This document shows positions 173 through 16,545 of a stretch of 54,985 nucleotides of DNA, in pieces. Position 1 is the first letter of the stretch; each line of letters starts with the position of its first letter. Origin of the DNA: Bacteroidaceae bacterium (GTDB lineage Bacteria > Bacteroidota > Bacteroidia > Bacteroidales > Bacteroidaceae); NCBI GenBank assembly GCA_017534535.1, contig JAFXVZ010000007.1, forward strand, positions 1 through 54,985. Reading direction: 5' to 3'. The translations under genes were made by a program, and so were the position numbers. A model generated the notes under the pieces. That model made no database searches. It was not told the origin of the DNA and saw only the letters and a list, made by a program, of their open reading frames with translations.

Positions 173-2575
173 ATGAAAAAAGTAAGCGCTTTTCTCTTAG
201 CCCTGCTACTCTCCATGGGCTTGTCGGCACAGATTCACCTGCCCGGCTACAACCAGCATCTTATCAATCCGGATTTAATGACAAAAGCATGGAAAGCCCA
301 ATGGATTTCCGCAGATGATCCGAATCTCAGCGACTATGGTGTGTATCATTTCCGTAAGACGCTCAGTCTGACAGAGAAACCACAGCAGTATATCATCCAT
401 GTTTCGGCAGATAACCGATATAAGTTGTATATTAATGGACAACTGGCTTCCTTAGGTCCTGCCCGTACTGATATCAAGAACTGGAATTTCGAGACTGTAG
501 ATATTGCTCCATACCTTAAGGCTGGCGACAACCAGATAGCTGCCATAGTGTGGAACTTTGCCAGTCAGAAGCCTGTGGCACAGATGTCTGCAGGCTCTGC
601 CACCTTCATTGTGCAAGGAAACACTGAAGCTGAGAAAGGCATCAATACCGACAGTAGTTGGAAAGCCATTCGCAACACAGCCTACTCACCCATCGCAGTG
701 GGTTATGGCCAAGTGCTTTGCTACTATGCAGCTGGTCCCACTGAGAAGATTGAAGCCGGCAAGTATCCTTGGGGATGGGAACAGGCTGGATTCGATGACA
801 GCCAATGGAAGAAAGTAAAGACCGGTATGCCAGGTGAACTCAAGGGTGCACAAGACAGCTACAGTCTGCCGCTCATCCCCTCTCCTATTCCACAGATGGA
901 ACGCACACCTATGCGTCTGGCTTCCGTCCGCATTGCCGAAGGTGTTCAGGTTCCAAGTGGGTTCCTAAAACAACCTATAAGCCTGACCATCCCTGCCAAT
1001 ACGCAGGCGAAGCTATTGCTCGACAATAAGGTTCTCACCACAGGCTATCTCAACCTGCTCTTCAGCAAGGGCAAAGGTGCGGAGATTCACATCGGTTATG
1101 CCGAGGCACTATACGAAGTAAACGAGAAAGGTCGCAACTCCGGAGCCAAAGGCAACCGCAACGAAGTGGATGGCAAACTCTTCGTAGGCTATGAGGATGT
1201 CATCACTGCCGACGGAGGCTCAGAACGCTTGTTTACCCCACTCTGGTGGCGAACATGGAGATATGTGCAACTGAGCATCAAGACAACCGAAGAGCCATTG
1301 GAAATCAAAGATATAAACTATATTTTCAGTGCCTATCCTTTCCAGTTGGCAAGTACGTTTAATGCCCCAGGCAACGACCTGTTCAACCAACTGATTGAAG
1401 TAGGTTGGCGCACAGCCCGACTCTGTGCCAATGAAACCTACATGGACTGTCCGTACTATGAACAACTCATGTATTTTGGCGATACCCGCATCCAAACCAT
1501 GCTGACCATGTATAACACACGCGATAAATATATGGTGAAGAATGCCATTGAGATGGGTCGTCACTCCATGAATAACGAAGGCATTACGTTGAGTCGTTAT
1601 CCCGATGACCTGGGACAACTGATACCATCTTACGCCTTGTCGTGGATCGGAATGATTTACGACTATTGGATGATGCGTGGCGATGAAGCTTATGTAAAGA
1701 CGTTGTTACCTGCGGTTCGTAGTATCTTGGCTTGGTATGAGTCATTCCTGAAAGAAGACTACAGCTTGAACAGGATACCCTACTGGTATTTCTGCGATTG
1801 GGCAGAAGGCTTCCCTCGCGGTGTGATACCTCGTGAAGACAATGGTAACTCAGCCTTCCAGGACTTGATGTATCTCTTGGCTCTTGATGAGACCATCAAA
1901 ATGGAAGAAGCGATGGGTATAGAGGGTATGGCAGACCATTATGAGGAAATTGCCGAAAATATCCGCAAGGACTTCAATGCCAAGTATTGGGACGCAAGTA
2001 GGAAACTCTATGCTGACACACATGATAAGAGGAACTACTCGCAACACTCTAACATTTTAGCTATCTTGGCTGGTATTGTGAAAGGCAATGATGCCAAGCT
2101 GTTGTGCGAGCGTATCTTGCAAGACAAGAGTCTGAATCAGGCAACCATCTATTTCCAGTATTACTTACACATGGCGATGGATAAGGCAGGTATCAGTGAT
2201 CAGTTATTGGATCATATCTCTACCTATACAGACTTGTTCAAGGTGGGACTATCTACAGCAATGGAATCGCCCGAACCGAGTCGCAGCGACTGCCACGCCT
2301 GGAGTGCCAGTATGAACATTGAGTTCCTGCGTATGGTACTGGGTATCCACAGTGATGCACCCGCTTTTGGTAAAGTGTTGATTACACCTGCATTGGGTAA
2401 GCTGATGGAAGCAAGTGGTTCGATGCCTCATCCGTTGGGGGAAATCCAAGTAAACTATAAGAAGGGTCAGAAATTGGAGGCCACCATCACCTTGCCTCAA
2501 GGTCTGACTGGCACATTACGTTATCAGGGTAAAGACTACGAATTGAAAGGTGGTGTTAACTCATTCAGATTATAA
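173..2575 (+). CDS. Secreted GH78-like glycosidase (alpha-L-rhamnosidase related)
   Basis: Predicted exported glycoside hydrolase of 800 aa, probably releasing terminal rhamnose or a similar sugar from plant or host glycans. The signal peptide is MKKVSAFLLALLLSMGLSAQ. An N-terminal beta-sandwich (about residues 50-150) resembles the rhamnosidase N domain, and the (alpha/alpha)6 barrel covers about 390-720. The motif DCPYYEQ at 425-431 is the family motif carrying the candidate general acid E430. A SDCHAWSA motif lies near the end of the barrel, followed by a C-terminal beta domain. The ATG at 173 was chosen because an in-frame start at 74 would run through the tRNA terminator and lacks the signal peptide at its N terminus. 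No SusC/SusD pair lies beside it, so it is an isolated gene rather than part of a polysaccharide utilisation locus. Substrate specificity cannot be read from sequence. Confidence 0.75.
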   Translation: MKKVSAFLLALLLSMGLSAQIHLPGYNQHLINPDLMTKAWKAQWISADDPNLSDYGVYHFRKTLSLTEKPQQYIIHVSADNRYKLYINGQLASLGPARTDIKNWNFETVDIAPYLKAGDNQIAAIVWNFASQKPVAQMSAGSATFIVQGNTEAEKGINTDSSWKAIRNTAYSPIAVGYGQVLCYYAAGPTEKIEAGKYPWGWEQAGFDDSQWKKVKTGMPGELKGAQDSYSLPLIPSPIPQMERTPMRLASVRIAEGVQVPSGFLKQPISLTIPANTQAKLLLDNKVLTTGYLNLLFSKGKGAEIHIGYAEALYEVNEKGRNSGAKGNRNEVDGKLFVGYEDVITADGGSERLFTPLWWRTWRYVQLSIKTTEEPLEIKDINYIFSAYPFQLASTFNAPGNDLFNQLIEVGWRTARLCANETYMDCPYYEQLMYFGDTRIQTMLTMYNTRDKYMVKNAIEMGRHSMNNEGITLSRYPDDLGQLIPSYALSWIGMIYDYWMMRGDEAYVKTLLPAVRSILAWYESFLKEDYSLNRIPYWYFCDWAEGFPRGVIPREDNGNSAFQDLMYLLALDETIKMEEAMGIEGMADHYEEIAENIRKDFNAKYWDASRKLYADTHDKRNYSQHSNILAILAGIVKGNDAKLLCERILQDKSLNQATIYFQYYLHMAMDKAGISDQLLDHISTYTDLFKVGLSTAMESPEPSRSDCHAWSASMNIEFLRMVLGIHSDAPAFGKVLITPALGKLMEASGSMPHPLGEIQVNYKKGQKLEATITLPQGLTGTLRYQGKDYELKGGVNSFRL

Positions 2576-2589
2576 AGGAATGATTTGAC

Positions 2590-2675
2590 AATTATCTTAC
2601 GAATTACGAATATCTAAGATAGACAATGTTTTTTATACACTTTCTATTCGTAAGATATTCGTAAGTTCGTAAGAT
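2590..2675. repeat. Left inverted-repeat arm of the VirE-like module
   Basis: An AT-rich arm built from the decamer ATCTTACGAA (2594-2603) and its reverse complement TTCGTAAGAT (2647-2656, 2666-2675; partial copy 2658-2665). The outer 21 bases (2590-2610) are a perfect inverted copy of 5641-5661, and the inner part (2646-2675) matches 5574-5603 in inverse orientation with few mismatches. The arm can also fold on itself: 2594-2604 pairs with 2646-2656. It lies 10 bases past the stop codon of the VirE-like gene. Confidence 0.8.
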
Positions 2676-2685
2676 GGCTTGTTAA

Positions 2686-4779
2686 TCACAGCAAAACAAC
2701 CTTGTATTCACTGGTGTTCTTGCCACGTCGGAAAGGCAATTCAGGCATGTTCTTCAAGAATCGTCCAAAAGCAGTCAATGACATATTGAAGTTCTTATCA
2801 TGTACATTCCTGATATGCTTCAGGATATCTGTAGGTGACATCCACTTTCCTTCATCACCATAATTTGCTGCTCGGAAATACTCGCTGAAGAGCTGTTCCT
2901 GTTCTTCCATCTGCATGAATGCGCGGTTGGACTCCATGATTTCCTTGACCTCATCCTCCGTAAACCAGTATGGCAACTTCTGGTCAAGTTCAGCAACCGC
3001 CTGGGCATAGAGCTGGGTGTAGTCGATGGGCGTTACAGTATCAATGGGGGCCGTCAGCTCCACGCAGAGGAAGCGGCGACTGCCCGTAGGGTCTGTCAGT
3101 AAGTCACTTACGTTGCTCGTACCGATAAACGAGGCATAACGGCGCTTCTCATTCACGGAATCCGTGAACAACTTACGCTGTTTGCTGTCCGTGCGCTGCA
3201 GTAGGTTCTTCAGGTAGCCGTTCTGCGAATGCTTCGTCAGCTGGTCGAACTCATCGATGTTCACCAGCAGGTAATGGCTGATGGTCAGGTCGATGTCACG
3301 GCGGTTGCCGAAGTCCAGCTGGTCAGTGAAGCCGAACGATAGCTCAGGCGGCAACAACAATCGGCAGAAAGTAGATTTGCGCCATCCCTGGCGACCAATG
3401 ATGACGGGCGCCACACTATTACCATACTGACTGTTCCATCCCCTCCACTGAGCTACCAATCCGCGGAACCAGATGCGGAACCACTTGTTCCAATGCGGGT
3501 TGTCGTTCTTGACACGATTTGCCATCGCACCAATATGATCCTTACCGTCCCACAGGCCATGCAGGTTGGATAGGTAGTCGTCAACGGGATTGTAGTCAGC
3601 CACGTCCGTCGATTTCACATAACGCAGCAGGTCGCGCTCTGTTACCCCGATACCCCTGCGACGAGCCTCCAGGATCATCTTGCTCAGCCGGCGCTCGTCG
3701 ATGGGACGGAAGGTGGGACTCCAGGAGTTGTTGTCTCGGTATTCGGGAACCTCCTTCAACACATTGTACCTCAATACATAGCGGTCGCTCATGTAGTGGT
3801 GGAACAACAGCTCCATCTGCTGGGTCTTGTTATAGGTAGGCTGCGAGGCGTACTTCTCGCCATAGGCATCATAGACAGTTTCGTAAATGGAGCGGACAGT
3901 CTCCTTGTCCATAGCCCCTACCGCCAGTGCGCCGGCATGCTTGATGGCCTCCTCCTTGGGGAAGCCCGCCAGGCAGCACTCCTTCGCCACTGCCCCGATG
4001 AACAGTTCCGTATCGGTATCGATGGTGCGAATATCCAGTTTCTTCAGTGCCATGTTCACGAGGATGCGGAAACGCTTCTCGAACTCCTCATAGCTGTCGG
4101 GGCCAGGCTCATAGCGCTCCAAAGGATTGCCCACCGCATTCTCCTCGGTATCGGAGAGCGTGATGTAGTAATCCATGTTCACCTTCAGGGGATAGGCATC
4201 CGGGGCAAAGAACGGCTCGGGGTCGTAGGTCATGCGGAAGCTCTGCTGCAAGGTGGGGTCCTCGCGGGTGATGTGGTAAGACACCACGCCGCTGTAGGTG
4301 GTGTATGCCAGGTAATATGCCTGTTCGTGGAAACGGGCGATGTCCCCGATTCCCGAAGGCAAGGAACCGTCTGGCAGGGAAACCCTTACCAGTATCTTGA
4401 CACTCTTGCCCGTGCTGCCTGTGAAAGCGGCATAGGTAGATGGCAGCGACTGCGCCAGCCGCTTCACGGTCTCAACTTCCTGCAGGTTAGCCAACTTGCT
4501 GACATTCAGCAGCACCAGGCCATTGTACTCCTTCAGTTCCATTTCCGAGGTGCCATGTTTCTTCCAAACACCAGCTACGGAGATGCGAGGGAGCTTCTGC
4601 AGGGCCTGCTGCACGAAGCCGGCACCTAAGGATTCCATCACGGGCAATTCCTGACGGAACCTGCTCACGGGCTTGCTCTTCATTTCGGTCATAATAAACT
4701 CCATCATCGCCTCAGGAGTCAAGGTCTTCAACGAGAGGGTTCGGGCCTCATCGTTGGTACGAATCAATGTAAACTTCAT
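2686..4779 (-). CDS. BT4734-like/VirE-domain protein (primase-helicase-like ATPase)
   Basis: 697 aa. The N-terminal part (about 45-200) resembles the BT4734-like domain, with FTGSTGKSVKILVRV (119-133) like the SGxGxK strand of archaeo-eukaryotic primase folds. The middle and C-terminal part is a VirE/VapE-type P-loop ATPase: GxxGWRKST at 462-470 (K468), acidic NIDEFD at 507-512, GTSN at 553-556 and an arginine finger in GSRRF at 566-570. A DUF3874-like winged domain occupies about 630-697. This resembles primase-helicase fusions of plasmids, phages and satellites, so DNA unwinding or priming is inferred, not shown. The Walker A glycine before the lysine is replaced by arginine. The start at 4779 is the only good ATG after a weak -7 box. 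The 22-bp repeats begin about 50 bases upstream. The inverted-repeat arm follows the stop. Confidence 0.8.
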   Translation of the reverse strand: MKFTLIRTNDEARTLSLKTLTPEAMMEFIMTEMKSKPVSRFRQELPVMESLGAGFVQQALQKLPRISVAGVWKKHGTSEMELKEYNGLVLLNVSKLANLQEVETVKRLAQSLPSTYAAFTGSTGKSVKILVRVSLPDGSLPSGIGDIARFHEQAYYLAYTTYSGVVSYHITREDPTLQQSFRMTYDPEPFFAPDAYPLKVNMDYYITLSDTEENAVGNPLERYEPGPDSYEEFEKRFRILVNMALKKLDIRTIDTDTELFIGAVAKECCLAGFPKEEAIKHAGALAVGAMDKETVRSIYETVYDAYGEKYASQPTYNKTQQMELLFHHYMSDRYVLRYNVLKEVPEYRDNNSWSPTFRPIDERRLSKMILEARRRGIGVTERDLLRYVKSTDVADYNPVDDYLSNLHGLWDGKDHIGAMANRVKNDNPHWNKWFRIWFRGLVAQWRGWNSQYGNSVAPVIIGRQGWRKSTFCRLLLPPELSFGFTDQLDFGNRRDIDLTISHYLLVNIDEFDQLTKHSQNGYLKNLLQRTDSKQRKLFTDSVNEKRRYASFIGTSNVSDLLTDPTGSRRFLCVELTAPIDTVTPIDYTQLYAQAVAELDQKLPYWFTEDEVKEIMESNRAFMQMEEQEQLFSEYFRAANYGDEGKWMSPTDILKHIRNVHDKNFNMSLTAFGRFLKNMPELPFRRGKNTSEYKVVLL

Positions 4780-4815
4780 TACTTAGTTAATGGTGTTATG
4801 TAATTAATTGATGTT

Positions 4816-4823
4816 CAATATTA
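4816..4823 (-). promoter_or_regulatory. Possible -7 box of the VirE-like gene
   Basis: On the minus strand TAATATTG matches TAnnTTTG at seven of eight positions, about 37 bases before the ATG. The expected -33 region would fall inside the first 22-bp repeat unit (4833-4854), so the repeats could act as operators of this promoter. No TTTG is visible there. Confidence 0.3.
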
Positions 4824-4832
4824 GTAGAGTCC

Positions 4833-5008
4833 ACTCCTGTCCGTTGGCATCGGACTGCCGGTCAGATGTAGTGTGACTATCGGTCAGATGTGCACTGACC
4901 GCCGGTCAGACACCAACAGACTGACGGTCTTACACCATCAGACCGAAAGGCTTATGGTTTCAGACCAGCGGGCATACGCCACCAGACCAGTGGGCAGTAG
5001 GTATAAGA
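4833..5008. repeat. Eight degenerate 22-bp tandem repeats (iteron-like)
   Basis: Contiguous units of exactly 22 bases at 4833, 4855, 4877, 4899, 4921, 4943, 4965 and 4987. Shared positions are a 5' CNNNCGGTCAGA-like half and a 3' end in CAGA or TGA. Units 2-5 (4855-4942) are best conserved, while the first and last are weak. There is no spacer between units. 22 is not a multiple of three, so these are not a protein repeat. They fill the gap between the DUF6078-like stop (5026) and the VirE-like promoter. Direct repeats of about two helical turns beside a replication-type gene resemble plasmid iterons or operators. Confidence 0.8.
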
Positions 5009-5025
5009 CAACCGTAGGCATTACA

Positions 5026-5457
5026 TTACCAGTTGATGATCTCCGTGTATTCATCGTACTTCACAGGCTCATTGATGCCGTTGTTCTTGAAGATTCGCTG
5101 GATGATCTCCTGCTCTTCCGGCCAGATGGGGCGCTTCTTGTTGTAAATGCGGTAATAAGTGTACTTACCGAAATAGTCCTTCACGCTGTGATATAGCAAG
5201 TCGTGCTTAATGGAGGGTACATAGTCGAAGATGTGACTGATGCCGTAAGCTACGCTGACAGGTTCGTCGGAACGGTAGAACGGACAGCTGTCGGTAACAT
5301 CTTCCACCAGATAAGGATTGACGATAGTGATGAACCGCATGTTCTTACGATGTTCCTGTGATGCGTGATGACGCAGACAGGTTTCCTTCAATGGGCATTC
5401 GTTACGAAAGCATACCTCGTAGTTGGCAGGCATGCCGGACAAAATCTTTTTGGTCAT
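5026..5457 (-). CDS. DUF6078-like four-cysteine protein
   Basis: Small protein of 143 aa, resembling the DUF6078 family known from Bacteroidota, function unknown. Four cysteines at 16, 21, 27 and 58, two followed by proline (CP), plus His30/31 suggest a metal or Fe-S site. The C-terminal half is rich in Tyr, Ile and Lys. The ATG at 5457 was chosen over one 60 bases upstream: the longer N terminus (MYICKPFAKG...) is AT-rich leader sequence and lies too close to the -7 box at 5507-5514. It is transcribed toward the 22-bp repeats and then the VirE-like gene in the same direction, so the two may be co-transcribed, though 246 bases separate them. Pairing with a VirE-like gene inside inverted repeats suggests a joint role. 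Confidence 0.65.
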   Translation of the reverse strand: MTKKILSGMPANYEVCFRNECPLKETCLRHHASQEHRKNMRFITIVNPYLVEDVTDSCPFYRSDEPVSVAYGISHIFDYVPSIKHDLLYHSVKDYFGKYTYYRIYNKKRPIWPEEQEIIQRIFKNNGINEPVKYDEYTEIINW

Positions 5458-5506
5458 AAAAACAATATTAAAAAGGTTAATAAATATGCCTTTCGCAAAA
5501 GGCTTA

Positions 5507-5537
5507 CAAATATACAAAATTTGAAGGCCTTTGTCAA
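5507..5537 (-). promoter_or_regulatory. Promoter of the DUF6078-like gene
   Basis: Minus strand: TTG (5535-5537), 20 bases, TATATTTG (5507-5514). It matches TTTG-N19-21-TAnnTTTG and places the transcript start about 40 bases before the ATG at 5457. Confidence 0.6.
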
Positions 5538-5573
5538 GTGTTTGGGCAAGAAATTTTTCATTTTTCGTAAAAT

Positions 5574-5661
5574 ATCTTACGAACTTACAACCATCTTACG
5601 AATAAGATAACACATAAACAACTTATCTTATCTGCAAATTTTCGTAATTCGTAAGATAATT
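5574..5661. repeat. Right inverted-repeat arm of the VirE-like module
   Basis: Mirror of 2590-2675: ATCTTACGAA at 5574-5583 and 5593-5602, with TTCGTAAGAT at 5648-5657. The outer 21 bases (5641-5661) are the exact reverse complement of 2590-2610, and the central ~35 bases diverge. It lies upstream of the DUF6078-like promoter. Confidence 0.8.
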
Positions 5662-5718
5662 TGGAAAATCATTTTCATTATTAATCTCTACCTACTATGA
5701 ACTGCTTGAAAGAGTGTG

Positions 5719-5748
5719 TTGTGGTAAGAGGAAAAACAACTATCTTCG
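5719..5748 (+). promoter_or_regulatory. Promoter of a candidate small RNA
   Basis: TTG (5719-5721), 19 bases, TATCTTCG (5741-5748), one mismatch from TAnnTTTG. No reading frame of note follows, but a strong terminator does, 41 bases later. Confidence 0.4.
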
Positions 5749-5754
5749 CATCCT

Positions 5755-5819
5755 CAATATAGCTTATTCTGTTGTGAAAACATTAGGTAGCCCTCGTCCT
5801 TTATCGGGGGCTTTTTTTT
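5755..5819 (+). ncRNA. Candidate small RNA of about 65 nt
   Basis: A promoter-like sequence (5719-5748) is followed by a short non-coding stretch and an intrinsic terminator: AGCCCTCG (5789-5796) pairs with CGGGGGCT (5805-5812), with one wobble and an eight-base loop, then eight T. The expected transcript runs from about 5755 to 5819. It could be an sRNA or the remnant of a lost tRNA unit. No homology is claimed. It sits just outside the right inverted repeat. Confidence 0.4.
5789..5819 (+). terminator. Intrinsic terminator
   Basis: Eight-base-pair GC-rich stem (5789-5796 with 5805-5812), eight-base loop, then a run of T to 5819. Nothing protein-coding precedes it on the plus strand. Confidence 0.75.
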
Positions 5820-5864
5820 GTCCTCATAGATCAACATAATATAAGCTATTGACTGCACACATCA

Positions 5865-5884
5865 CTGACCCTGCCACGGGTCAG
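5865..5884. other. Small perfect hairpin in gene-free stretch
   Basis: CTGACCC (5865-5871) and GGGTCAG (5878-5884) form a 7-bp stem with a six-base loop and no T run. The stretch 5458-6178 holds no protein gene: it contains the DUF6078-like leader and promoter, the right repeat arm, the small-RNA candidate, this hairpin and tRNA-Arg. Confidence 0.4.
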
Positions 5885-5893
5885 CTAACAAGC

Positions 5894-5945
5894 AAAAAAG
5901 AGGGAAACATTTGAAAGCAAGCTTTCATGTCTCCCTCTTTTTTTT
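5894..5945 (-). terminator. Terminator of tRNA-Arg(TCT)
   Basis: A long stem with AAAAAAGAGGGA at 5894-5905 and TCCCTCTTTTTT from 5932, extended by GAAAGC/GCTTTC near the loop. On the minus strand the hairpin ends in T residues just after the tRNA 3' end. It is symmetric enough to work in both directions. Confidence 0.8.
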
Positions 5946-5949
5946 CTTG

Positions 5950-6023
5950 TGATTCCGCCGCGATTCGAACGCGGGACCCACAGCTTAGAAGGCTGTTGCT
6001 CTATCCAGCTGAGCTACGGAACC
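5950..6023 (-). tRNA. tRNA-Arg (TCT)
   Basis: 74-nt cloverleaf. Acceptor GGTTCCG/CGGAATC with discriminator A, anticodon stem ACAGC/GCTGT, loop CTTCTAA, anticodon TCT. The T arm CCGCG/CGCGG has the standard TTCGAAT loop. The acceptor stem is the same as in the two tRNA-Arg(ACG) genes near 39300. CCA is not encoded. Confidence 0.95.
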
Positions 6024-6058
6024 TCCATGTAAATACAACAATGTCGATTTTTCGGGTG

Positions 6059-6089
6059 CAAAGGTAAGGCTTTTTATCCGAATTACAAA
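6059..6089 (-). promoter_or_regulatory. Promoter of tRNA-Arg(TCT)
   Basis: Minus strand: TTTG (6086-6089), 19 bases, TACCTTTG (6059-6066), ending 35 bases before the tRNA 5' end. A full match to the Bacteroidota consensus. Confidence 0.75.
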
Positions 6090-6178
6090 CTTTCCACCAA
6101 GTTTTTTTGCAATACCTGGTTTATCGTAATAAAATAATGCTTATCTTTACGGCATAAAAAACTAAAACGAATTGAGCT

Positions 6179-6892
6179 ATGAAGAAGAATTTCTTTTCTG
6201 TTTTGTCTTGTACCTTATTGGGTATCATGATGACGATGGTCTATATGCCAAATGCTAAAGCCCAAAACTTTGACATCAATGACCTGAAAACATGGGCAAA
6301 CTATGAGCGATATGCCGAGGCTAACCAATCGGTGAGCAACCCTATTGCTGTATTTATGGGTAACTCTATTACGGACAATTGGGCTCGTATGCATGAGGCA
6401 TATTTTACTGAGAATAATTTCGTGGGACGTGGTATTAGTGGACAAGTAACTGCCCAGATGTTAGCCCGTTTCCGTGCTGACGTGCTAAACCTGCATCCAA
6501 AGGTGGTAGTAATTATGGCAGGTACCAACGATGTGGCTCGCAATCAGAAATACATACCTGTAGAGCATGTGGCAGGCAACATCATCTCGATGGTGGAACT
6601 GGCTATTGCACATGGTATCAAACCCATCATTCTGAGTATATTACCCGCTAACAAATACGGATGGAGGCCAGAAATTACTGACTCTACTCAACAGATTCTA
6701 CAAATCAATGCAATGCTGGAAAGCTATGCGAAGCTGAATGGTATAAGCTACATCGATCTCTTCAACCTGATGAAGGATGAGAACCAAGGGTTGCCTAAGA
6801 AGTATTCTTCTGATGGCGTGCATCCTAACCTGGATGGCTATGCCATTATGGAGCCGATTGTGAAGGCTGAGATTTTACGTTTAGCTCGCTAA
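6179..6892 (+). CDS. Secreted SGNH/GDSL-type esterase
   Basis: 237 aa with signal peptide MKKNFFSVLSCTLLGIMM...NAKA. SGNH hydrolase blocks are all visible: GNSITDNW (block I, serine nucleophile), a glycine in RGISGQV (block II), GTND (block III) and DGVHPNLDGY (block V, Asp-His). Such periplasmic enzymes remove acyl or acetyl groups from lipids, peptidoglycan or glycans; the substrate here is unknown. A -7-like TATCTTTA lies at 6142-6149. The stop codon overlaps that of the convergent receptor gene by four bases (shared CTAA). Confidence 0.85.
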   Translation: MKKNFFSVLSCTLLGIMMTMVYMPNAKAQNFDINDLKTWANYERYAEANQSVSNPIAVFMGNSITDNWARMHEAYFTENNFVGRGISGQVTAQMLARFRADVLNLHPKVVVIMAGTNDVARNQKYIPVEHVAGNIISMVELAIAHGIKPIILSILPANKYGWRPEITDSTQQILQINAMLESYAKLNGISYIDLFNLMKDENQGLPKKYSSDGVHPNLDGYAIMEPIVKAEILRLAR

Positions 6893-9261
6893 AACTTATA
6901 ATAGAGGCTTAGCAAGATATTTCGTGGGCGGATTTCGTAAGATGAATACGATTTAGTAAACATCTCGGAATCCGCCAGCGTGTAATTATATGTTTTCTGA
7001 TTTAGGATATTCTTAGCAGAAAGGATGAATTGCCAAGCATCATTGATGTTATACTCTGCCTTGCAATCAAACAATACCAAATGCTTCGACACGTCATCAG
7101 TAAATTCTGTATAGTAATGCTCACCCAGCACACTGAAGTTCAGTTTCTTCCACGGAGAGAAGATCATCTCCAACGTCTGTGTATAACTCTGCGAGTTAGT
7201 TGAGGTGTCAAACTCATCCATTTTTATGTGGGTGGTGTTATATTCCAACTTATACACCACATTCCACCATGAATTGAGGCGACCATTGATATAAGGTGAT
7301 ACAGAAATGGTGCTACTGGTAAATGGAATCTCTGTACCATTACGTTCCATCACGTCTTTCGACAGATTACTCCTGATACTGATACCTATCTTACCTTTCA
7401 ATGACTCGATACCCTTACTGATGTTGGCATTCGCTTCCCACCAATCTGAATGATACTTGCCTTCACCATAACCCTTGATGAAATAACCATTATCAATACT
7501 CATAATTTCAGACAAATAAGTATCAGATCCCCAATATGATAAGTCCACATTAACGAATACCGAGGATTTAGGATGACTATATCGTCCTGCCAACTCCAAA
7601 GTGGTATTTCGATAGCCCCTAAAACCAGGATAGCCCGCATTGATGGTATAGTAATCACTGAACAACATACCGGGATAGAGGTTCATGCGCTTGCGCTCGT
7701 TGGATTTCAATGCTGCCTCCAATGAAAGCGAAAGGTTTTTAGAAGCCTCATACTTGACTGAGAAAGCAGGCGAGAAATAGACTTTAGATTTGCTGATATC
7801 CAAAGCAGTTGGTTTATTCTTCAAATTATAATGCCCATATTTCAAAGGGAACTTCAGCTCTGCCTGCATTTTGTCAGTTATAAAGGTAAACGACAAGCCT
7901 GTATAAGCGTTAAAGATATTGGTCTGTGAGTCTATGTTAGGGATTTCTAGCGGATTGAAGCCAGCCAACTGCATATCGAGCGAACGGAAATTGACTGTAG
8001 CTCCACCTTCTAATGAGATTGTGAGGTACTTACCAGTTTTGCGGTCAATCATCGCCCCAACTTCCGCATAAGCTGAACTCGATTTGATGTTTTGCTTGAA
8101 AGTTTCCTCCTGCTGCTTCACATGCAACTCCTGAGGTCTAAGGTACAAGCCCGCATTGGCGTTGAGGGTGAGGATGCTCTTCCCCAAGTGGTGCTTGAAG
8201 ACAAAATCATCCTTTAGAAACAGTGGTTTGGACTCAGCCAACTGGTCGTTGTTGAAGGTACCCGTAATTGTTTTATCCACATCATACCACTCTGTAGCAA
8301 AGCTCAATTGGTTACGCAGGAATTGCTTATCTGTATTGGAAAGCAAGATGATATCTGCCTGGATATCGTGCTGATGGCTCTTAGCCTGCTCACCCATGAT
8401 ATGCTCCATCGTTTCGTTGCCATTCAAGAAATAGGTAGTCTCGTCAAAACTGGATGCGGTGAGGCGATCTGTGTGGTAATACAAGTTGAGACTCAACTGA
8501 TAATCGTTGTTGAGCTTCCAAGATGTTCCCAAATTGGCGATGGCACTTCTATTAAACCTCACCCGCTCAGGAGAAAGAGGTGCCAAAGTAGGTTGTACGT
8601 TAAGAAAGTTCTTTAAGCTGAAGTCAATGCCACTACCACCATATATACTATTAGACATCATCCAATCTTCCTCAATACCACCAAAGCCATTCAGCACACC
8701 CGCAAAGTTCAAACCCGTATTATCAGCCTTAAACTGCAAGGTGGTCTGCATCTTACTACCCAAATTAATAGCGTTGAGATCTGTATTCACCAACAAAGGC
8801 TTGAATCCCAGTCCACCCTTCATGGAACCCGACCACTGAGACTCTCCTCCTTCCTTCAGGATTACATTGATAGAGGCACTATTGCTGTATTGCATACCTT
8901 TCATCACCTTCATTACTATGTGGTTTTCAGTAATCTCGACACGTTCCACATCCTCAGGCTTCATATTATATACAGGGTCACCCGTTTGTAGGATGTCCAT
9001 ACCATTCACATATATCTTCTCGATAAACAAACCATTATAACTAAATGAGGTGTTTCCATCAAAGGTCATATCTGAGATGCCTGGCATCTTCTTCAGCACA
9101 TCCTCCAACTTCTTGTCGCGAATATCAGTGAAGCTCTCCACATCATAGCTCACCGTCTTTTCCAGACCGTCGTTGCCCACAGCTGTAACCATATCCTGCG
9201 CCCAAAGATAAATGGGAGCCAGGAATATCAAGCACCATAAACATCTCAAGCGTTTTCTCAT
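6889..9261 (-). CDS. TonB-dependent receptor-like outer-membrane protein
   Basis: 790 aa, signal peptide MRKRLRCLWCLIFLAPIYLWA. A plug-like domain (about 35-140: LEDVLKKMPGIS, IYVNGMDIL, VERVEITE) is followed by a long beta-barrel rich in alternating aromatic strands that ends in Phe (LLSLYYKF), the usual barrel signal. The carboxypeptidase-like N-terminal domain of SusC-type receptors and an obvious TonB box are absent, so TonB dependence is uncertain. The ATG overlaps the stop of the GH13 gene by one base (TAATG), so the two are translationally coupled. No SusD partner lies nearby. It may import a sugar, metal or peptide, or only carry the fold. Confidence 0.7.
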   Translation of the reverse strand: MRKRLRCLWCLIFLAPIYLWAQDMVTAVGNDGLEKTVSYDVESFTDIRDKKLEDVLKKMPGISDMTFDGNTSFSYNGLFIEKIYVNGMDILQTGDPVYNMKPEDVERVEITENHIVMKVMKGMQYSNSASINVILKEGGESQWSGSMKGGLGFKPLLVNTDLNAINLGSKMQTTLQFKADNTGLNFAGVLNGFGGIEEDWMMSNSIYGGSGIDFSLKNFLNVQPTLAPLSPERVRFNRSAIANLGTSWKLNNDYQLSLNLYYHTDRLTASSFDETTYFLNGNETMEHIMGEQAKSHQHDIQADIILLSNTDKQFLRNQLSFATEWYDVDKTITGTFNNDQLAESKPLFLKDDFVFKHHLGKSILTLNANAGLYLRPQELHVKQQEETFKQNIKSSSAYAEVGAMIDRKTGKYLTISLEGGATVNFRSLDMQLAGFNPLEIPNIDSQTNIFNAYTGLSFTFITDKMQAELKFPLKYGHYNLKNKPTALDISKSKVYFSPAFSVKYEASKNLSLSLEAALKSNERKRMNLYPGMLFSDYYTINAGYPGFRGYRNTTLELAGRYSHPKSSVFVNVDLSYWGSDTYLSEIMSIDNGYFIKGYGEGKYHSDWWEANANISKGIESLKGKIGISIRSNLSKDVMERNGTEIPFTSSTISVSPYINGRLNSWWNVVYKLEYNTTHIKMDEFDTSTNSQSYTQTLEMIFSPWKKLNFSVLGEHYYTEFTDDVSKHLVLFDCKAEYNINDAWQFILSAKNILNQKTYNYTLADSEMFTKSYSSYEIRPRNILLSLYYKF

Positions 9262-14468: not shown

Positions 14469-15200
14469 ATGGGAAGAGCGTTTGAATATAGAAAAGCTGC
14501 TAAGCTGAAGAGGTGGGGCCACATGGCTAAGACCTTCACCCGTCTGGGCAAGCAAATCGCCATTGCTGTAAAGGCTGGCGGTCCAGAACCTGAAAACAAT
14601 CCTACGTTGCGTTCACTCATCGCCAACTGTAAGCGTGAGAATATGCCGAAGGATAACATCGATCGCGCCATCAAAAATGCGATGGGCAAAGATCAAAGCG
14701 ATTACAAGAGTATGACTTATGAAGGCTACGGCCCTCATGGTGTGGCTATCTTCGTGGATACACTGACTGATAATCCTACCCGTACGGTGGCTGATGTACG
14801 TTCAGTGTTCAACAAGTTCAGTGGTACCCTGGGCACCATGGGTTCTCTGGCATTCTTGTTCGACCACAAGTGTGTGTTCACCTTTAAGAAAAAGGATGGC
14901 CTCGATATGGATGAGTTCATCCTGGACATGATTGATTACGACGTTGACGAGGAGTACGATGTTGACGATGAAGAAGGAACCATCACCATCTATGGCGATC
15001 CTAAGAGCTATTCTGCTATCCAGAAGCGCCTGGAGGAGCAAGGTTTCGAGGACGTTGGTGGCGACTTTACATACATTCCTAACGACCTGAAAGATGTAGC
15101 TCCTGAACATCGTGAAACTATCGATAAGATGGTGGAGCGTCTGGAGGAGTTCGACGATGTCCAGAATGTTTATACCAACATGAAACCTGAAGAAGAATAA
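14469..15200 (+). CDS. YebC/PmpR-family (TACO1-like) protein
   Basis: 243 aa. The conserved N terminus MGRAFEYRKAAKLKRWGHMAK and the three-domain YebC layout are present (HHSPN-type basic start, then TYEGYGPHGVA and an acidic DVDEEYDVDDEEGT stretch near 155-175). Family members act as DNA-binding regulators or, as shown more recently, help ribosomes through stalling sequences. Which of these applies here is unknown. It lies directly after pheT, and its 3' end meets lptG head-on across a palindromic terminator. Confidence 0.92.
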   Translation: MGRAFEYRKAAKLKRWGHMAKTFTRLGKQIAIAVKAGGPEPENNPTLRSLIANCKRENMPKDNIDRAIKNAMGKDQSDYKSMTYEGYGPHGVAIFVDTLTDNPTRTVADVRSVFNKFSGTLGTMGSLAFLFDHKCVFTFKKKDGLDMDEFILDMIDYDVDEEYDVDDEEGTITIYGDPKSYSAIQKRLEEQGFEDVGGDFTYIPNDLKDVAPEHRETIDKMVERLEEFDDVQNVYTNMKPEEE

Positions 15201-15201
15201 C

Positions 15202-15361
15202 AATTGACAATTGACAATTGACGATTGACAATTGACGATTGATTATTGACGATTGACAATTAACAATTGACTATTAATGCATATTTATATAAAGAGTAGA
15301 GTTGATAATTTCAACTCTACTCTTTATAATTGTCAATCGTCAATCGTCAATTGTCAATTGT
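15202..15361. repeat. Inverted arrays of CAATTGAC-type repeats around a terminator
   Basis: Left of the central hairpin, short units of the CAATTGACAATTGACGATTGAC type are strung together (15202-15270). On the right (15329-15361) the same motif appears in reverse complement (GTCAATCGTCAATTGTCAATTG). Together they make a long imperfect palindrome of about 160 bases around the terminator between the convergent yebC and lptG genes. Similar low-complexity strings are common in Bacteroidales intergenic DNA. Confidence 0.75.
15288..15328. terminator. Bidirectional terminator between yebC and lptG
   Basis: A perfect stem: AAAGAGTAGAGTTGA (15291-15305) with TCAACTCTACTCTTT (15311-15325), extended by TAT/ATA to 18 pairs, with a five-base loop TAATT. 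The A and T flanks allow function on both strands. Confidence 0.85.
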
Positions 15362-16545
15362 TATTTCGGTGCCCTACGATACAAGAAAAACGCAATAAAA
15401 GCGTAGAGAATATTCGGAATCCACACAGCGATAACAGGAGGCATATTGCCGTTAACCGCAAACGTAGAAGAAACTGTCTGGAACAAGATATAACTGAAGC
15501 TCAGGCCTAAGCCAATACCTAAGTTCAAACCCATACCGCCCTTCATCTTTCGCGATGACAACGAAGCACCAATCAACGTCAAGATAAACGACGCAAATGA
15601 CATTGCAATTCGTTTATGATACTCTATCTCAAACTCTTTCGTATTTGACAAGCCCCTCGCACGTTGCCTGTCAATATATTCACTCAACTCGGGATTCGTC
15701 ATCATCTCCTGCTGATTCTGCATCAAAATCAAGTCATCTGGTGTTAACTTGATCAACGTATCAATACGATTACCTCTCTTAATGACCTCACGCTCACCCC
15801 CCAACTCACGAATCATATAATCCCGGGCTGACCAATGATTAGCATGTAATGTATCATACACAATCGTACGAGCAGTCATGTGCGACACAAGCTGTTTACC
15901 ATCAAACTTATCCAGCGAAAAACGATAACCCGTCTTGCGATTATCTTCATAACGCTCAATATAAGCCACAACATTAGTATCCACCTGCATCTGAATATTG
16001 CGAGCAGTATTCGTCTTACGCTCCTTGTAATACTTATCCTCAAAATTGATGCGCGTCACACTGCCCTTCGGGATAATGTAAGCCCCCAGGAAAAATGTCA
16101 CAATAGAGATAATCGCAGCAGACACCATATAGGGACGCAACATACGCTTAAAGCTCATACCTGTGGAGAACATCGCAATAATCTCAGAGTTTTCCGCCAT
16201 CTTTGCAGTGAAGAAAATCACGGCGATGAACACAAACAACGGACTGAATAGATTGGCAAAATAAGGTATGAAATTTTGATAGTAATCGAAAATGATTGCG
16301 TTCCACGGAGCCTCGTGCTGCATGAAACGATCCATCTTCTCGTTGAAGTCAAATACCACCGCAATGGAAATAATCAGAGCAATAGCGAAAACATAAGTAC
16401 CCAAGAACTTCGCCATGATGTAGTAATCAAGACGCTTCAAATACTTGTGCGGCATCAAGTTCCATAGGCTTTGAGCCCAAGCATGATTCTTCAACCATTG
16501 CTCGAATTTGTTTTTCCATCCTCCTATGTTCCAGAACTTTCCCAT
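15361..16545 (-). CDS. LptF/LptG-family permease (YjgP/YjgQ)
   Basis: 394 aa inner-membrane protein of the lipopolysaccharide export ABC transporter. Three N-terminal membrane segments (about 45-70, 95-115, 135-165), a periplasmic jellyroll-like region (about 170-300) and three C-terminal segments (about 305-390) fit the LptF/LptG topology. The motif ENSEIIAMFSTGMSFKRML is the coupling region contacting the ATPase LptB. Its start overlaps the tgt stop (TAATG), so lon-tgt-lptG behave as one minus-strand unit. LptF versus LptG cannot be decided; lptG is the more usual name next to tgt. Confidence 0.88.
   Translation of the reverse strand: MGKFWNIGGWKNKFEQWLKNHAWAQSLWNLMPHKYLKRLDYYIMAKFLGTYVFAIALIISIAVVFDFNEKMDRFMQHEAPWNAIIFDYYQNFIPYFANLFSPLFVFIAVIFFTAKMAENSEIIAMFSTGMSFKRMLRPYMVSAAIISIVTFFLGAYIIPKGSVTRINFEDKYYKERKTNTARNIQMQVDTNVVAYIERYEDNRKTGYRFSLDKFDGKQLVSHMTARTIVYDTLHANHWSARDYMIRELGGEREVIKRGNRIDTLIKLTPDDLILMQNQQEMMTNPELSEYIDRQRARGLSNTKEFEIEYHKRIAMSFASFILTLIGASLSSRKMKGGMGLNLGIGLGLSFSYILFQTVSSTFAVNGNMPPVIAVWIPNILYAFIAFFLYRRAPK

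Follow-up and report, generated by a model that had tools for sequence, protein, structure and literature searches.

The window analysed here is a 54,985-nucleotide stretch of a Bacteroidaceae genome (contig JAFXVZ010000007.1 of GCA_017534535.1, positions 1 to 54,985). Between a GH78 gene on the left and a tRNA-Arg gene on the right it holds a compact block in which genes and a repeat array are boxed in by inverted repeats (Table 1). In the outer arms (2590-2613 and 5638-5661), 96% of 24 nt are complementary, including a perfect core of 21 bases, while no inverted match in 1000 shuffles exceeded 13. The inner arms pair at 90% over 31 nt (2645-2675 with 5574-5604), and a gapped comparison joined outer and inner parts into a single arm pair, 2579-2675 with 5574-5673 (100 columns, 78%, E ~1e-14). 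An earlier note, made from the sequence alone, had described such arms enclosing only a BT4734/VirE-type protein, eight 22-bp repeats and a four-Cys DUF6078 protein, and had proposed a compact element lacking a transposase. This description holds: C16, C21, C27 and C58 of DUF6078 are invariant in 25 aligned sequences, and no recognised transposase was found in the two window proteins with Pfam, NCBIfam or PHROGs. Likewise, a profile search returned no Y1 domain in the proteins of the element, and no integrase, satellite regulators or packaging genes lie between the arms, where the gene content is two. PADLOC returned matches to a PrimPol profile (1e-27) and, weakly, to an RT-associated VirE profile (2.5e-6); the region between the window arms contains neither a cas nor an RT gene. 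In an Rfam scan of window positions 2000-7000, tRNA alone reached threshold.

Table 1. Features of the vapE block, in window positions.
Feature	Position	Strand	Content	Method
Left hairpin arm	2579..2675	+	Outer motif copies pair with inverted inner copies	Repeat comparison and folding
VapE-type protein, 697 aa	2686..4779	-	BT4734-like_N, VapE-like helicase domain, DUF3874	
Array of eight 22-bp units	4853..5028	.	Iteron-like	Period analysis
DUF6078 protein, 143 aa	5026..5457	-	Four invariant Cys	
Right hairpin arm	5574..5673	-	Inverted copy of left arm	Repeat comparison and folding

The window block is a member of a widespread Bacteroidales family. A genus search found a VapE relative (E 1e-30) in 113 of 158 genomes and a DUF6078 relative (E 1e-5) in 124 of them; a scan of genome contigs returned no DUF6078 relative. 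Inverted repeats flank vapE at 21 of 33 genus loci, counted with the length limit unset (L029 matches over 28 bp and L017 at E 0.001), versus none of 30 control RecD2 loci. The corresponding count for named genomes is 29 of 80 loci, including two whose repeats do not resemble arms (L270, 233 bp; L271, at contig ends), versus none of 60 random window spans; among named-genome loci with at least 1.5 kb on both sides it is 25 of 62. The two locus sets overlap (for example L008/L197 and L006/L257), and a flanking pair was not found at 12 of the 33 genus and 51 of the 80 named-genome VapE loci, nor at the C20 VapE homologue of the window's own genome. Another homologue in that genome (C32; L076 7230-9722) is an 830-aa VapE-like ORF with in-frame heptamer repeats. 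Loci chosen for DUF6078 gave no flanking pair (0 of 33), a weak test because such loci are not long and in many cases contain just a portion of a VapE element (vapE in 14 of 33).

The partner of vapE varies within the family: the window group has DUF6078, genome G155 and its relatives have an HU-HIG protein, and other elements have no partner gene. In the single-gene elements (L069-L074) a lone VapE of ~400 aa sits between arms 1.4-1.8 kb apart, and the BT4734 domain is absent by Pfam from both of the proteins checked (L069 and L074). DUF6078 was rejected as the core enzyme on the grounds that these elements do without it. Two further loci show other genes between arms. At L072 (373-3583) a weakly ATPase_2-like AAA gene lies between two direct-orientation arms beside a VapE element, and arms may therefore box other genes too. 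On plasmid pCACC737_3 (L285 4814-13234), CTTCCAC-type arms enclose HU, BT4734/BF3469, phosphatase, priA and IS1182 transposase genes over ~8.4 kb. Family-level matches to VapE were found in 189 phage and 47 plasmid records, all below 60% identity, with only 4 relatives among 2.9 million viral contigs and no arm pair round vapE in two phage-labelled records. A viral origin was rejected on the first two counts. Open-licence papers, which make up a part of the literature, yielded nothing on VapE-linked repeats, on DUF6078, or on VapE together with an inverted repeat in Bacteroid genomes.

The best structural match of VapE was PriRep1 (PDB 7pds), with the SaPI5 primase-helicase also matched, and its fold match to AEP proteins was weak. 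The idea of a replicative element, one of those put forward in the earlier note, thus stays plausible. The N-terminal domain of VapE is PF08800. In 24 full-length sequences, with motifs placed by us, none has both acids of AEP motif I (hhhDhD/E), the His of motif II was not seen and the Asp of motif III is kept, so that the primase motifs look degenerate. Codon comparisons (dN/dS 0.04-0.20 in 8 gene pairs, with dS >1 in several) indicate that the genes of vapE elements are under purifying selection and not decayed.

The eight units of the window array each start with GAC, at 4853, 4875 and on to 5007, and the best period is 22 (65% match; next best 39%). This period is a general property of the family. 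Of 90 regions upstream of vapE, 63 have 22 as their best period (43 of 69 when redundant regions are removed), versus 136 of 1800 random stretches from the same loci; some of these stretches could include part of the array. Of the five single-gene elements whose upstream region can accommodate an array, four agree; the exceptions in this class are L069, with period 21 and then 22, and L074, with just 48 bp upstream of vapE. The repeated letters, in contrast to the period, vary from element to element, which would be expected of iterons whose recognition changes. At SaPI origins, the iterons are specific to the Rep protein.

Beyond what the earlier note describes, each window arm folds on itself into a hairpin built from iterated TTCGTAAGA-type motifs (z -7.3 and -6.6). 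Arms are ~90-100 bp in size and the motif is element-specific: TCTTACGAA in the window, TTCTTCCGC in G063, ATTCCGC in G064, CTTCCAC in G101, CTTACAAC in G099, CCTTCACC in G071 and CCCTCAC in G155. The hairpin architecture is conserved. Outer and inner halves of the same arm pair with a score of 13.1, compared with 7.4 for halves of different arms and 7.2 for shuffled letters, a difference reached in 0 of 10000 permutations; the own inner half is the top partner in just 17 of 40 arms, a set in which L006/L257 is counted twice and L270 is included. The two arms of one element agree at 0.53, compared with 0.12 between elements (31 elements). Window and G063 proteins are 81% identical at an arm similarity of 0.10, and arm similarity correlates weakly with VapE identity (Spearman 0.22-0.26). 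Of 31 arms, 9 share a loop core like TATTCATCG, compared with 0.14 among shuffled arms. Because the arms form inverted pairs round vapE with matching motifs and conserved pairing, ordinary terminators were rejected as a full account of them, although single arms may also act as terminators. A separate heptamer-repeat hairpin (ACAATTG/GACGATT) with an inner perfect 18-bp stem lies between two convergent genes at window positions 15192-15366.

Copies of the arms are dispersed in the same genomes and carry the motif of the resident element. With the window left arm as query, three further inverted pairs of 529-591 bp were found in its own genome with no VapE inside, each consisting of an arm, a 22-bp array and an arm. 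Two of them lie at unrelated sites of one contig and have 89.6% identity over 606 bp, the similarity stopping near the outer motif. Gene-less elements share the array period: 22 was best in all 12 tested out of 18 gene-less or remnant loci (L150, L152, L153, L154, L158 and L159 were left out). The G063 VapE arm matched nine places in G063 at E 1.5e-16 or better. Two are its own VapE pair and the remaining seven are solo hairpins of ~80-94 bp, one of which (94 bp, 9.5 kb from the VapE element) is 99% identical to the VapE arm. Elsewhere the same query gave three matches in G000 (8e-7 to 9e-10), three in G101 and, in G064, nothing beyond the VapE arm, and motif specificity is therefore strong, not absolute. 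The CCCTCAC arm is found at additional sites in G155, G041 and G027. A gene-less element of G027 has a 300-bp interior that is 84-86% identical to the vapE-HU intergenic DNA of G027, G155 and G041, as expected of a VapE element with an internal deletion. By our reading, 8 of 11 sites in G000 and G063 lie between convergent genes and 3 between tandem genes, with one more site lacking a left neighbour. The earlier note had included a satellite or defence-type element among its readings; a one-off block of that kind is not supported, as the family is widespread and has its own gene-less copies, and cas and RT genes are absent between the window arms. The note had also named arms that follow unrelated genes as ordinary terminators as an outcome against its reading; arms do follow unrelated genes, but as hairpins with the family motif, several of them in inverted pairs.

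Presence of the element at a given site differs between species. The RecD2/alaS gap contains a window-motif element in G000, is a plain 57 bp in G100 and holds other repeats in G063 and G082; it looks like a hot spot. The same intergenic region (L092, L098-L104) carries unrelated repeat families in some species and a plain terminator in one. At the EtfB site an element is present in G027, where there is also partial duplication of flanking DNA, and the gap is 58 bp in G041 and 53 bp in G005. Regions of 16 kb or shorter round four VapE relatives match the window within the block only, and the occurrence of all copies at one site, which the earlier note had given as an outcome against its reading, was not seen. 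The two closest GH78 orthologues (G100, 85%; G064, 81%) have no block downstream; the right flank also differs in both, so that neither offers a clean empty site at the tRNA-Phe/GH78 locus. Loss with scars occurs as well. At a VapE site common to G155, G041 and G027, G005 is without the element but retains ~47 bp of one arm, which marks loss and not a virgin site, and a 73-bp remnant is found in G041 and G155 (L153, L158) where G027 has a longer copy (L161). No target-site duplication was clear by eye at the sites inspected, a near-identical strain with a virgin site not being among them. Transposition events, excised forms and a nuclease were not seen in this sequence analysis.

The reading we favour, and judge somewhat likelier to be right than wrong, is that the repeats form a REPIN/MITE-like family that depends on an SF3-type initiator helicase instead of a transposase, the window block being a gene-carrying copy of the hairpin-repeat element. 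vapE is associated with the repeats, and VapE may bind these sites and drive their copying or mobilisation. A VapE ring would load on the 22-bp array, the iterated motif copies or both, and would melt the hairpin ends; host enzymes would then copy the exposed unit into new intergenic sites. Gene-less arm-array-arm copies and solo arms could be mobilised in trans by VapE if their motif fits, in a manner analogous to the proposed action of RAYTs on REPINs, although VapE has no recognised nuclease. Anatomy and fold argue for the loading and hairpin-opening steps, and we infer host copying and re-entry. Scattered hairpin ends in the absence of a recognisable transposase hint at an undescribed route of repeat spread. 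More tentatively, and with somewhat less than even confidence, we suggest a new mode of DNA mobility in which a nuclease-less, transposase-less SF3-type initiator helicase propagates hairpin-ended units in cis and in trans by melting and re-copying, with fast-switching, iterated recognition motifs at the ends and a fixed loading array of 22-bp period.

The main rival, which we consider unlikely, is that the arms are ends moved in trans by an unseen transposase, such as a Y1 enzyme, with vapE as cargo. Inverted ends with gene-less copies are the usual transposon/MITE picture, and Y1 genes (PF01797) are present in G064, G101, G155 and G027. In addition, two Y1 transposase-like loci (L280, L282) are flanked by inverted repeats of iterated 14-mers in an arm-like style, and the gene between arms can also be the AAA ATPase of L072. 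On the other hand, PF01797 (E 1e-5) was unmatched in the arm-bearing genomes G000, G063, G099 and G041, one of which is a single contig, in a genome-wide transposase search that covered PF01797 and a G000 assembly only 89% complete. Moreover, VapE is the sole gene of the single-gene elements and most Y1 loci inspected have repeats of another kind. Should a hidden transposase be found, the family would fall back among known kinds. Less probable still is that these are settled, vertically inherited repeats, like many REPs, with little present mobility, serving as VapE, HU or DUF6078 sites in replication, supercoiling or 3'-end processing. The orthologous copies common to G155, G041 and G027, the decay scars, the purifying selection (dN/dS 0.04-0.20) and the intergenic places (8 of 11 between convergent genes) would all suit a host feature, but copies that are 89.6% and 99% identical lie at unrelated places and presence differs between species, which shows that movement or copying took place in the past. 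A decayed satellite or plasmid replicon trapped in the chromosome, with a PriRep-like initiator, iterons and arms that are its former ends, would account for the structural similarity to PriRep1 and the SaPI5 primase-helicase, the 22-bp array and the 189 phage and 47 plasmid matches, but is improbable given just two genes that are not decayed, the 4 relatives in 2.9 million viral contigs and the two phage-labelled records with no arm pair round vapE.

To our knowledge, every explained interspersed bacterial repeat family rests on a nuclease or transposase. The VapE family differs in that its dispersed hairpins track an initiator-type helicase gene, and if VapE drives the repeats, mobility can arise from replication initiation and host repair. 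Fast motif change under a constant architecture would also provide a natural series for studying initiator/site co-evolution. If the favoured reading is correct, it would give a role to many BT4734/BF3469 (VapE) and DUF6078 genes of gut Bacteroidales, for which we found no tested function.

Among known systems, REPIN-RAYT is a close parallel. In the REPtron, the gene of the Y1 HUH transposase TnpA-REP is flanked by its REPs (PMC6006769). The same source describes a gene between hairpin repeats, a motif family for each gene and copies dispersed between genes, single or paired (PMC6006769), all of which the VapE family resembles, down to hairpins scattered between genes and matching those that flank the resident gene. 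Unlike REPIN-RAYT, however, the VapE element has no Y1 domain, its gene encodes an AAA+ helicase that often has a degenerate AEP-type domain, and its arms are made of iterated motifs and accompanied by a 22-bp array. As with MITEs and their autonomous TIR transposon, the gene-less derivatives retain the ends of the gene-carrying copy together with its internal non-coding sequence. Terminal inverted repeats are likewise shared with IS elements and TIR transposons, but the gene-carrying VapE copy has no recognised transposase and a target duplication was not found. PriRep1 and SaPI-type initiator-helicases (PDB 7pds, 7ola) are matched in fold (7pds), and the 22-bp array may correspond to an iterated origin that VapE would bind; unlike PriRep1, SaPI and PICI systems, the VapE element has no island, integrase or packaging genes, is boxed by hairpin arms and has these arms dispersed. 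The BT4734-like AEP family, for which motif I is given as hhhDhD/E (PMC5862659), shares PF08800 with the N-terminal domain of the window VapE, but motifs I and II look degenerate here and the single-gene elements checked are without the domain. CRISPR- or RT-associated PrimPol/VirE defence differs in that the VapE-DUF6078 unit lacks both cas and RT genes. Each of these kinds failed a test that defines it, and we therefore place the VapE-arm family outside them.
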